DNA from: Balneolaceae bacterium
GTDB taxonomy: Bacteria > Bacteroidota > Rhodothermia > Balneolales > Balneolaceae
Assembly: GCA_017795005.1 (NCBI GenBank)
Contig: CP051242.1
Span: 2,690,976 to 2,754,975 of the forward strand
DNA: 64,000 nucleotides
Direction of reading: 5' to 3'
Under the pieces are notes generated by a model, which was not told where the DNA came from, did not search any database, and saw only the letters and a program-made list of their open reading frames with translations. Position numbers and translations under genes: made by a program. This document shows, piece by piece, positions 7,241 through 31,397 of this stretch (positions are counted from its first letter, which is position 1; each line of letters opens with the position of its first letter).

Positions 7241-8115
7241 TCAGGTTGAGCGGCATTAATAACTTCAAAAAACTGGCGGGTTTTATCTAATCCGTCAGTT
7301 CCATTTATTTCCGCATACCAGTATTGTTCAACCCTTCCTCCCTGCATAAGTAATTGCATGGTTCCCTGACTTTTATGTTCTGCGATCACCCAGTTTGTAA
7401 TAATGTTGTAATCCAATCTGTCATCGAACCCAAACTTTTGATTTCTGTCAAACTCAAAGATTACATTGGGAAGTACTTTAGTTATGGGATATCCTTCCAG
7501 CATCTCAAAATCCAATCCTTCCTGCCCTTCCCTTTTATTCCATGAGGGTAATGCAATCGGACGATTGTCAGGATCCATTGATTCAATTGCCTGCAATGCC
7601 ATAATTGTAGCGACATTATGATGGCCGTGATTTCCGTTGAATGGCAACATCATAAATACAAAATCATACTTCTCTTTTTCAATGATAGATGTTAACCGTT
7701 CCAGGATCGGTGGTGTATCCCATTTTTCGAGTGTTTCCTCAACATCCTGTGTGTAGTAAAAATCCTGCTGATCAAAGAAAAAATAATTTCTGATTCCAAC
7801 AACATCCCCTCCCGCCATCAATTCTTTTTTTCTTATTCCGGGTAAATAGTCACGTCCTGTTTCCTCTTGATCTAACTCTTTACCATAAACATAATTTCCA
7901 AGTGTGGAATATTTATACCCTCCTTCTCCATTGGTCATTAGTGCTAGATCAACAATGCCGCCTAAAAGTTTAGTAGTCTTCCAAACAGTAACAGAAAATA
8001 AGGCATCATCATCTGGATGAGCAGTTACAAGAAGAATTTTGGGTTGGTAGTCAAGCTCTTGTGAAATTCCTTGAACGGAATACGATACCAGAAATAATAA
8101 AAACAACTTTTTCAT
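7237..8115 (-). CDS. PIG-L/LmbE family deacetylase, secreted
   Basis: Zinc-dependent PIG-L enzymes remove N-acetyl groups from glucosamine-linked substrates. The 292-residue product has a signal peptide (about residues 1-19). The signature metal site AHPDDDALF has H33, D35 and D36. A second metal region, NGHHNVA, has His residues at 163-166. Export suggests it acts on envelope or extracellular sugar derivatives rather than on mycothiol/bacillithiol precursors, but that is inference. Transcription runs away from tesA, which lies upstream on the same strand with a 74-bp gap containing a long inverted repeat. The two genes are therefore probably separate transcripts or only partly linked. Confidence 0.88.
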   Translation of the reverse strand: MKKLFLLFLVSYSVQGISQELDYQPKILLVTAHPDDDALFSVTVWKTTKLLGGIVDLALMTNGEGGYKYSTLGNYVYGKELDQEETGRDYLPGIRKKELMAGGDVVGIRNYFFFDQQDFYYTQDVEETLEKWDTPPILERLTSIIEKEKYDFVFMMLPFNGNHGHHNVATIMALQAIESMDPDNRPIALPSWNKREGQEGLDFEMLEGYPITKVLPNVIFEFDRNQKFGFDDRLDYNIITNWVIAEHKSQGTMQLLMQGGRVEQYWYAEINGTDGLDKTRQFFEVINAAQPD

Positions 8116-8125
8116 TAATACAACA

Positions 8126-8190
8126 ATTATGAATTATGAGTTTTGAATTTGAGATACTAATTCAAAATCCATAATCCGAAATTCATAATT
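8126..8190. repeat. Long AT-rich inverted repeat between tesA and the PIG-L gene
   Basis: Left arm AATTATGAATTATGAGTTTTG and right arm CAAAATCCATAATCCGAAATTCATAATT are near complements around a short centre. The structure begins at the tesA stop codon and can act as its terminator. Its size and A/T-rich arms resemble dispersed palindromes rather than a classic terminator. Confidence 0.5.
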
Positions 8191-8801
8191 TATTTTTTTA
8201 AAACCGGGTATAACGATTCCCAAACAGTGTTAGCAACTATTCGATGTCCGGCTGCATTAGGATGGATTTGATCTGCCTGCATGTACTCATCTCGTCCTCC
8301 AACTTTATCCAGAATTAATGGAATCAGCGGAATTTCATTGGATTCGGCCAGGTCGGGGTATAAATCCTGAAATTCACGAGTATATTCAATCCCCAAATTA
8401 GGAGGCACCTGCATTCCTGCAATCAGAATTTCCATATCCGGATTATTTGCTAATGCCCTGTTAATAATTTGTTGAAGGTTCTCTTTGGTTGAAGAAAGAT
8501 CAATCCCCCGCAATCCATCATTACCTCCCAGTTCAAGAATCATGATGTCTACTTTTCGTTGCAGAACCCAATTAATCCTTCTTAGTCCTCCTGCGGAAGT
8601 CTCACCGCTTAATCCGCCATTAATGACGGTATAATTTAGTCCGAGTGAATCAATTTTTTCCTGTATCACAGCTGGAAAAGCCTGACTTGGATCTACACCA
8701 AGTCCTGCAGTAATACTATCGCCAAAGATCAGAATAGTTTTCTTTTCCTGAGCTATGGCAGATGTTGTAAGTAGTAAAAAAAGTAAAAGTAGTCGTTTCA
8801 T
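8190..8801 (-). CDS. tesA: Arylesterase/lysophospholipase of the TesA (TAP) family
   Basis: This 203-residue SGNH hydrolase has a clear signal peptide (MKRLLLLFLLLTTSAIA-Q), so it is periplasmic like E. coli TesA (thioesterase I/protease I/lysophospholipase L1). All blocks are present: FGDSITAG (Ser29), NGGLSGETSAGG (block II), LGGNDGLRG (Asn94) and DQIHPNAAGH (Asp177, His180). Length and motif spacing are normal. It is divergent from the ABC transporter pair ybbA-ybbP. The same divergent tesA/ybbAP neighbourhood is known in E. coli and many other bacteria, which supports the assignment. A 15-bp perfect-armed palindrome at 8817-8831 lies just upstream and could be an operator. Confidence 0.92.
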   Translation of the reverse strand: MKRLLLLFLLLTTSAIAQEKKTILIFGDSITAGLGVDPSQAFPAVIQEKIDSLGLNYTVINGGLSGETSAGGLRRINWVLQRKVDIMILELGGNDGLRGIDLSSTKENLQQIINRALANNPDMEILIAGMQVPPNLGIEYTREFQDLYPDLAESNEIPLIPLILDKVGGRDEYMQADQIHPNAAGHRIVANTVWESLYPVLKK

Positions 8802-8816
8802 AGTTCATTTTTTGAT

Positions 8817-8831
8817 GCTAACCGTGTTAGC
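8817..8831. promoter_or_regulatory. Operator-like palindrome in the tesA/ybbA divergent gap
   Basis: GCTAAC-CGT-GTTAGC has perfect 6-bp arms. It lies 16 bp upstream of the tesA start and 125 bp upstream of ybbA. The regulator is unknown and chance occurrence is possible. Confidence 0.3.
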
Positions 8832-8955
8832 TTGTACAGGATTCCATTAAACCTAAACAAAACACTTTTTAAAACGTAGATTTTAAGGTTTTAGTCGGAA
8901 TGAAATTGAGGTTCCCGTCGGTTACACTATCAAGTTTAAAAAAATATTTTTCATT

Positions 8956-9663
8956 GTGTCCAGCATACTTACTGTAAATAGTCTCTCCAGAGAATTTAAA
9001 AGCGGTTCAAAAACTTTAACCGTTGTAAATAACATTAATTTTGAAATAGAAGAAGGAACTTCCTGTGCAATTGTAGGCCCTTCCGGAAGTGGAAAAACAA
9101 CCTTACTAGGTCTTTGCGCAGGACTGGATCGTCCGACCTCGGGTGAAGTTATTCTTAAAGGGGTGAACTTGAACCCACTAAATGAAGATCAAAGAGCAAC
9201 CGTAAGAAATCAACATGTAGGTTTCGTCTTTCAAACGTTTCAGTTAGTTCCAACCCTTACCGCAATTGAAAATGTAATGGTACCACTTGAACTTCGTGGC
9301 GAAGCAACAAAAGCTGTTCGCGAGAGAGCTAAACAGTTATTAGAAGAAGTTGGGTTAGGAGACCGGACTCATCACTACCCTACTCAGCTATCCGGGGGAG
9401 AGCAGCAACGTGTAGCTATTGCAAGAGCCTTTATTAACGAACCTAAAATATTATTCGCAGACGAACCTACCGGAAACCTTGATACCGAAACCGGAGAGTA
9501 CATCGAAAAATTGATATTTGATTTAAATGAGAAACAGCAAACTACCTTAGTTCTTGTTACACATGACCTTGAGTTAGCAGATAAATGTGATCGTATTATC
9601 AAAATCAAGAATGGAAAAGTGGATGAAGACATATTCACTTCAAATAAAGAGGTAGTATCTTAA
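8956..9663 (+). CDS. ybbA: ABC transporter ATP-binding protein, YbbA/LolD type
   Basis: This 235-residue ATPase has Walker A GPSGSGKTT at 41-49, the Q-loop FVFQTFQLVP, the signature LSGGEQQR near 145-152 and Walker B ILFADEP at about 165-171. These match the MacB/LolD/YbbA group that powers FtsX-like permeases. The start is GTG at 8956; no ATG is available in frame nearby. The stop codon overlaps the ATG of the following permease (TAATG), indicating translational coupling. Together the pair probably extracts or moves lipids, lipoproteins or hydrophobic compounds across the cytoplasmic membrane. The exact cargo is not known for YbbAP systems. Confidence 0.93.
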   Translation: MSSILTVNSLSREFKSGSKTLTVVNNINFEIEEGTSCAIVGPSGSGKTTLLGLCAGLDRPTSGEVILKGVNLNPLNEDQRATVRNQHVGFVFQTFQLVPTLTAIENVMVPLELRGEATKAVRERAKQLLEEVGLGDRTHHYPTQLSGGEQQRVAIARAFINEPKILFADEPTGNLDTETGEYIEKLIFDLNEKQQTTLVLVTHDLELADKCDRIIKIKNGKVDEDIFTSNKEVVS

Positions 9664-30621: not shown

Positions 30622-30783
30622 TTCCTCTCCCTGACTCGCTCAATGTTCGCGAGTCTGTCCCTCCCCTAGGAGGGACAGGGTTAGCCTTCACTTTTTTACA
30701 AGCCAAATTTTTTGATTGGGGCTTCCACTGTCTCCCGCTTGAGGGAGACAGATTTTGCACCTGTGCAAAATCAGAGGGAGGAC
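30622..30783. repeat. 162-bp four-hairpin repeat, copy 1 (flanks DUF559 gene)
   Basis: The unit holds four consecutive hairpins: GACTCGC/GCGAGTC (30633-30655), TGTCCCTCC/GGAGGGACA (30656-30677), CTGTCTCCC/GGGAGACAG (30728-30751) and GATTTTGCAC/GTGCAAAATC (30751-30772). It ends CAGAGGGAGGAC, and its left end TTCCTCTCCCTGA is the near inverse of that. The second copy, in the same orientation at 31236-31397, has the same length. The stop codon of the DUF559 gene lies inside the right end. Confidence 0.9.
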
Positions 30784-31169
30784 TCACGGACTCCCAACTC
30801 AGAAATGACCTCCGAAATCATCCTCCTAACATCATCCATATTATCCAACACCTCCTCATCCGTAAACCGAATAACAGTAAATCCAGCATTTTCCAATTCC
30901 ATTTGTCGCTTCAAGTCTTTTAATCGAACTACCAAATCATCATGCGAACTACCATCCACCTCGATAATCAACTTTAACTCCTGACACATAAAATCGGCAA
31001 TGTATTTTAAAACAGGTCTCTGTCTTTTGAAGGTGAATCCTGTTTGCTTTTTGGATAAGCCATATTTCCATAAACAGGCTTCTGCTTTGGTGGCTTTATT
31101 TCTTTTGATTCTGGCTAAATCTTTCATGTTGATATTATAGCCGAAGTTGTTGGATTTTTCCGCTTTCAT
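30771..31169 (-). CDS. DUF559 endonuclease-like protein (VSR/PD-(D/E)XK-related)
   Basis: This 132-residue protein is of the DUF559 family, predicted nucleases related to very-short-patch-repair endonucleases. The core is FKRQRPVLKYIADF followed by LKLIIEVDGSSH, giving D59, E70, D72 and H76 as the likely PD-(D/E)XK-type metal site. A later FTVIRFTDEEVLDN supplies the conserved Arg101. The N-terminal KAEKSNNFGYNI matches the usual family start, so the ATG at 31169 is preferred to 31127. It is bracketed by two direct 162-bp repeats. Its last three codons and stop (Ser-Ser-Leu-stop) lie within the end sequence GTCCTCCCTCTGA of copy 1. The partner or target is unknown; a mobile or repeat-maintenance role is inference. 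Confidence 0.9.
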   Translation of the reverse strand: MKAEKSNNFGYNINMKDLARIKRNKATKAEACLWKYGLSKKQTGFTFKRQRPVLKYIADFMCQELKLIIEVDGSSHDDLVVRLKDLKRQMELENAGFTVIRFTDEEVLDNMDDVRRMISEVISELGVRESSL

Positions 31170-31235
31170 GAGTTGGTCTTTTCTTACGTGAGACCGGGGT
31201 GAGAGGGATTCCTTACAAAGTTTTTTGCTCGAACC

Positions 31236-31397
31236 GTCCTCTCCCTGACTTGCTCAATGTTCGCAAGTCTGTCCCTCCCCGAGGAGGGACACTTTAGATA
31301 CCTTACTTTTCTGCCAGCCAAATTTCTGATTGGGGCCTCTACTGTCTCCCCTTGGGGGGAGACAGATTTTGCACCTGTGCAAAATCAGAGGGAGGAC
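31236..31397. repeat. 162-bp four-hairpin repeat, copy 2
   Basis: Same order of hairpins as copy 1, with ends GTCCTCTCCCTGA and CAGAGGGAGGAC. Stem 1 reads GACTTGC/GCAAGTC instead of GACTCGC/GCGAGTC, a paired C-G to T-A change that keeps the stem. The fourth hairpin (GATTTTGCACCTGTGCAAAATC) is identical in both copies. The rest of the gap 31170-31484 holds only the DUF559 leader and about 90 bp of featureless AT-rich DNA. Confidence 0.9.

Follow-up and report, generated by a model that had tools for sequence, protein, structure and literature searches.

A DUF559 nuclease gene within whalefall-1 hairpin repeats suggests an overlooked family of mobile elements

The described system closest in logic to the locus reported here is REPIN/RAYT, whose short palindromic repeats likewise form inverted pairs, lie between genes, and occur in many gene-less copies, with a solitary nuclease gene flanked by its cognate repeat and several families in one genome (PMC3116915). 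The two differ in enzyme, in structure, and in tag: our locus encodes a DUF559 protein of predicted PD-(D/E)XK/Vsr type rather than a Y1 HUH transposase; of the four hairpins in each of its elements, two vary in sequence yet stay paired; and the tag is GTCCTC/GAGGAC, whereas REPIN/RAYT tags are tetranucleotides of GTAG or CGTC type (PMC3733652). Since both the Y1 enzyme and the REPIN tag are absent, we do not place the locus within REPIN/RAYT.

The repeats themselves are known by another name. The whalefall-1 motif (Rfam RF01762) was published as a structured, most likely non-coding RNA found only in whale-fall metagenomes (PMC2864571). The repeats described here contain a 56-nt motif identical in kind; unlike the published motif, it is a dispersed DNA repeat that occurs in inverted pairs in many genomes of the order and forms the end of a nuclease-bearing unit. 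The enzyme has relatives of its own. EDxHD homing endonucleases such as I-Bth0305I share its catalytic fold and active-site arrangement (PMC3943268), but the DUF559 unit has no intron, intein, or extra DNA-binding domains, and is instead bracketed by hairpin repeats. The Vsr and VsrA mismatch nucleases share its superfamily and active site (PMC12907096); in contrast to Vsr, the gene studied here has no adjoining methyltransferase partner. We found no literature that connects DUF559 with whalefall-1, or either of them with mobile repeats, in a search outside of which most subscription papers and preprints fell, so that this absence is not proof.

Anatomy of the locus

The window analysed is a stretch of 64,000 nucleotides from a Balneolaceae bacterium (GCA_017795005.1, contig CP051242.1, positions 2,690,976 to 2,754,975). 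A preliminary description reported two 162-bp repeats of equal length and orientation around a nuclease gene, each with four hairpins in fixed order. Both the coordinates (30622–30783 and 31236–31397, 452 bp apart) and BLAST (~87% identity) agree with this, and the hairpins are present in both copies. Some details change: the outer ends given as GTCCTC and GAGGAC are found in the right copy and at both 3' ends, but the left copy starts TTCCTC; and the interval said to hold only the nuclease gene does enclose a single gene, but that gene runs into the left copy, with its last codons and stop inside the inner motif.

Each 162-bp copy consists of two inverted whalefall-1 motifs with ~49 bp between them. 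All four motifs match the 56-nt RF01762 model over its full length, at scores (below) that exceed the Rfam gathering score of 37 bits; the 162-bp repeat is thus motif B, ~49 bp, and motif A, and the true repeating element is the 56-nt motif in inverted pairs. Motif B runs in the order GTCCTC, CCTGA, variable hairpin, fixed hairpin, and motif A is its inverted version. The features are as follows:

30622–30678, minus strand: whalefall-1 motif B1, outer left (RF01762, 49.6 bits), made up of fixed hairpin, variable hairpin, and tag, the tag reading TTCCTCTCCCTGA on the plus strand
30679–30727, no strand: B1–A1 spacer, ~49 bp, homologous to the right-hand spacer
30728–30783, plus strand: whalefall-1 motif A1, inner left (RF01762, 57.8 bits), with 3' end GAGGAC and containing the nuclease stop codon
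30771–31169, minus strand: DUF559 nuclease gene, 132 aa (PF04480), its C-terminus ESSL-stop derived from the repeat tail
31188–31218, minus strand: promoter-like motif TTGTAAGGA-N14-GGTCT-N-AC, upstream of the nuclease gene
31236–31292, minus strand: whalefall-1 motif B2, inner right (RF01762, 56.1 bits)
31293–31341, no strand: B2–A2 spacer, ~49 bp
31342–31397, plus strand: whalefall-1 motif A2, outer right (RF01762, 72.7 bits)
30728–31292, no strand: core unit of A1, DUF559 gene, and inverted B2, laid out like the minimal units of genomes G045 and G064

The gene product matches PF04480 with E=5e-30 and 103.9 bits, against a Pfam cut-off of 20.6. Its neighbours in the window are a DinB/DUF1572 gene and polA, and no methyltransferase gene was found among its immediate neighbours.

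Dispersed elements and gene-bearing units

As the preliminary description had proposed, copies of the repeat were counted: the window's own genome (G000, 3.75 Mb) has about 40 whalefall-1 places and a sister species about 30, and nearly all of them lack the nuclease gene. In G000, 22 of these places are full elements of ~140–175 bp—motif A, ~33 nt, and motif B—in which GAGGAC and GTCCTC point inwards. Like REPIN/RAYT repeats, these are inverted doublets, mostly intergenic and in multiple copies; 12 of 13 checked copies overlap no gene of at least 100 codons, the remaining one reaches 30 bp into the end of a gene, and the genes flanking intergenic motif pairs run in all directions. Gene-less solo units of the opposite arrangement, B–spacer–A, are also found (G001:C2:705877-706036 and G000:2545235-2545350).

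The hairpin structure of the dispersed copies exceeds chance. Across 13 aligned copies the outer hairpins are near-constant in sequence, and the inner ones vary widely yet stay paired, retaining 97% and 87% of their pairs. Changes on both sides of a pair are seen in 6 of 9 and 6 of 10 pairs of the variable hairpins (12 of 19 together), and the covariation score for the whole structure is 0.301, compared with 0.106 after shuffling and no more than 0.061 when the structure is slid. A scan for terminators with a T run found none, which gives a terminator function of the repeats no support.

Within some whalefall-1 hairpin loops (L056, L062, L064, L065, L066) lies an additional palindrome, CCTGCCTG..CGGCAGACAGG, which looks like a second repeat inserted into the loop. 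At some intergenic slots, the family of the resident hairpin element differs from one species of the genus to the next (L054 / L223; L067 / L220 / L221). Empty sites were sought for six dispersed elements: G001 has one, and other orthologous sites are either too diverged or taken up by elements from other families. No obvious target-site duplication, a mark of MITEs and insertion sequences, was seen against comparison species that are only ~80% identical at the DNA level, a divergence that leaves empty sites imprecise to the base.

Gene-bearing units occur in several relatives. The simplest belong to G045 and G064, members of a different genus of the family: motif A, the DUF559 gene, and motif B follow one another, so that the unit is the short element with its ~33-nt loop swapped for the gene. 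In the window, one further motif lies outside this core on either side; G001 has the same layout, and G005 and G014 have part of it; in the window, G001, and G005, direct copies of motif, spacer, and inverted motif flank the gene on both sides. The nuclease frame ends on the repeat's own TGA in six species (the window's, G001, G018, G045, G064, and G084); the window sequence at this point is GTCCTCCCTC-TGA-hairpin. Gene and repeat thus interlock at the level of single bases.

The G001 unit lies at the same place as the window's, between polA and a peptidase gene that we take to be of the M3 family. Its variable hairpins have been replaced with pairing kept, which rules out the random segmental duplication of flanks that the preliminary description had allowed for. 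In G002, polA adjoins the DinB gene and the unit is absent. Two genomes speak against a simple correlation of gene and repeat: G002 keeps DUF559 genes but almost no dispersed whalefall-1 copies, and G013 has whalefall-1 copies with no DUF559 gene found in its fragmented assembly. In G001, a gene between the DUF559 unit and polA has a C-terminal part that by eye looks like TIR-like nucleotide-binding proteins (L203 ~8000-9500).

The nuclease, its repeats, and its promoter

The AlphaFold model of the window DUF559 protein (pLDDT 92.3) has as its best matches among solved structures NGO0050 (3hrl) and the catalytic domain of the homing endonuclease I-Bth0305I (3r3p; E=1.2e-3, TM 0.80 on target), and shows both the fold and the residues of the EDxHD catalytic domain. 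E30, D59, and D72 are invariant, and H76 and D85 invariant or nearly so; these acidic and histidine residues correspond to the Vsr-type active site. Judged by its model, the enzyme is a Vsr/EDxHD-type nuclease with a PD-(D/E)XK fold. Substitutions relative to G001 are mostly synonymous (dN 0.14, dS 0.89), pointing to purifying selection on the gene; the G001 copy has an in-frame stop close to its start and may be broken. Decayed copies exist elsewhere, with internal stops in two DUF559 genes of distant genomes (L112, L134). PADLOC gave weak matches only.

The coupling of this nuclease to structured repeats is strongly supported far beyond the window locus. The preliminary description had suggested a repeat-nuclease unit, and it was the boundaries of this unit that were misdrawn. 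Repeats might have been absent near other DUF559 genes; instead, G000 has six such genes and one broken one, with hairpin repeats of several families near each. Comparing the 300 bp to the left with the 300 bp to the right (score of at least 18), similar flanks are found for 4 of 6 DUF559 genes in G000 against 2 of 233 other sampled genes. The comparison was extended to ~80 DUF559 loci from Bacteroidota, Balneolota, Chlorobiota/Ignavibacteria, Planctomycetota, Syntrophaceae/Smithellaceae, Zixibacteria, and cyanobacterial records, where related flanks accompany 49 of 77 DUF559 genes and 3 of 142 neighbouring genes (Fisher p 4e-25); the remaining 28 DUF559 genes (~36%) fall below the left–right threshold within 300 bp. 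With coding ends masked, the figures are 44/96 against 5/1042 for left–right pairs drawn from different loci. These neighbouring-gene and mismatched-flank controls exclude chance adjacency.

The repeat families differ between phyla, and in each of six further genomes tested the flank repeats also occur at dispersed sites (4 to 96 matches). Similar nucleases (pairs of at least 60% identity) tend to have similar repeats across phyla: with coding ends masked the share of similar pairs is 13.6%, against a mean of 5.8% and a maximum of 12.2% in permutations within phyla (0/1000). The rank correlation of nuclease and repeat is weaker (15/1000 permutations). A tandem array of a ~170-bp hairpin-bearing unit was seen on one side of one DUF559 gene (L014:1880-2324).

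The coupling is present even in E. coli K-12, where the DUF559 gene ycjD adjoins CCCCTCACCCTAACCCTCTCCCCAGAGGGGCGAGGGGAC, a repeat found by BLAST at a median of 19 places per genome in 5,376 E. coli genomes and perhaps the one called 'box C'. Like the window gene, ycjD thus sits beside a multi-place repeat; unlike it, the repeat has another sequence, and no motif pair with the gene in its loop was seen. Downstream of ycjD the dispersed repeat is C-rich, and upstream there is a long, nearly perfect hairpin (L262:2205-2243 and 2760-2802).

The promoter-like motif upstream of the window gene recurs at other loci. A scored search of 1.26 Mb of sampled stretches, nearly all from G000 and G001 rather than a whole genome, gave 14 matches and none in the reversed control; in the first search, the spacing was identical in all 11 exact matches. 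Of the best 12 matches, one is at an unexplained place; the others precede five DUF559 genes (one clearly broken), comEC, comM in two species, a RAYT gene, a broken GIY-YIG gene, and a gene for a 23S-intervening-sequence-type protein. Besides the window, sites of the motif include L218:10530, L310:2507, L324:17881, and L343 near 200. The comEC and comM products have Pfam matches, and we take both to be competence proteins.

The DUF559 genes with this motif belong to different repeat families, and the RAYT and GIY-YIG genes are each bracketed by a different repeat of their own. The GIY-YIG gene has one in-frame stop and lies between inverted repeats GTCATCCTGAACTTGTTTCAGGATCTTA (L343, G000:439300-442000, ~150-600); this locus forms a repeat-nuclease unit parallel to that of DUF559 and has the promoter motif as well. 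The 23S-rRNA-intervening-sequence-type gene, in G001 (L334 ~15700), has by eye the inverted ends TGTTAAATG...GGTGGTTATG, which gave no score in the scripted flank test. A competence regulon that includes several palindrome-bracketed genes is possible, and the window DUF559 gene is probably expressed together with the DNA-uptake machinery.

A mobile element and its rivals

The pairing of gene and hairpins in many phyla suggests that mobile hairpin elements equipped with a nuclease of their own form a family so far overlooked. We lean towards reading the window as the nuclease-bearing copy of a small element that resembles REPIN/RAYT, with a Vsr/homing-type nuclease in place of the Y1 transposase. 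The ends of the element would be two whalefall-1 motifs in inverted orientation. Most copies, with only ~33 nt between these ends, would be non-autonomous; the few with ends around a DUF559 gene would be the source of the nuclease. Many gene-less sites, which the preliminary description took as a possible argument against an association, do exist, but they hold the short form, as non-autonomous copies would. The nuclease would recognise the ends by their invariant hairpin, the variable but always paired hairpin, and the GTCCTC/GAGGAC tag, and may nick or cut hairpin ends in trans; the resulting break or single-strand intermediate would be repaired by copying the hairpin element, with or without the gene, into a new or allelic site. 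The logic would be that of REPIN/RAYT or of homing, with an unrelated enzyme. Points against this reading are that the genome comparisons caught no element in movement, that some DUF559 proteins are domains within large proteins, and that a mismatch-repair role has been proposed for Caulobacter VsrA.

The main rival, which we rate as somewhat unlikely, is that the gene is a homing-type passenger that lands on existing repeats and moves by homologous recombination between solo motif–spacer–inverted-motif units. The two readings part only over the gene-less copies, which the nuclease would spread in the first but not in the second. The direct copies on both sides of the gene in the window, G001, and G005 fit a passenger, as do the gene-less solo units in G001 and G000 and the homing endonuclease fold of the enzyme; however, G045 and G064 have minimal units that resemble the short element with the gene as cargo, and repeat families follow nuclease lineages across phyla. 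It is improbable that the repeats are simply an RNA feature—a non-coding RNA, terminator, or mRNA stabiliser—with the nuclease gene there by chance or using them as its 3' end. Rfam files the motif as an RNA, the covariation preserves hairpins able to act in RNA, and the repeat supplies the nuclease stop codon, but the inverted pairs are intergenic among genes running in all directions, the terminator scan was negative for T-run terminators, other repeat families stand beside DUF559 in other phyla, and the controls exclude chance adjacency.

Less probable again is a Vsr-like repair or restriction nuclease to which the repeats are incidental. Sequence and fold are indeed Vsr-like, and a role in mismatch repair has been proposed for Caulobacter VsrA (PMC12907096); against this stand the missing methyltransferase neighbour and the repeat association across many phyla. 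The idea that another enzyme, RAYT or some other transposase, spreads the repeats is the hardest to sustain, and we consider it very improbable. G000 does encode two clear Y1 transposases, but none of the four Y1 loci examined has whalefall-1 motifs, and few of the other sampled genes in G000 (the 2 of 233 above) reach the bracketing threshold. The clearest RAYT has its own, different repeat on both sides and so fails to explain whalefall-1; as a mobiliser of whalefall-1 elements RAYT is unlikely, its loci having other repeats.

To the mobile-element reading we attach a more tentative proposal, which we regard as possible but doubtful: hairpin elements built around the unrelated nucleases DUF559, RAYT, and GIY-YIG may share one promoter with comEC and comM and spread by homing in competent cells, with DUF559 and whalefall-1 as halves of one system. 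Expression together with DNA uptake, when single-stranded DNA enters the cell, would supply a single-stranded substrate. If so, the competence programme would be a common vehicle of bacterial palindromic repeats; should the promoter link hold, hairpin repeats would be connected to natural competence.

These findings give DUF559, a very common protein of unknown function, a likely role, and since the coupling extends to ycjD in E. coli K-12, this role is testable at once. They also reinterpret whalefall-1, an orphan Rfam RNA, as the end of a nuclease-bearing element, and DUF559 would be a second, unrelated class of enzyme coupled to REPIN-like repeats.
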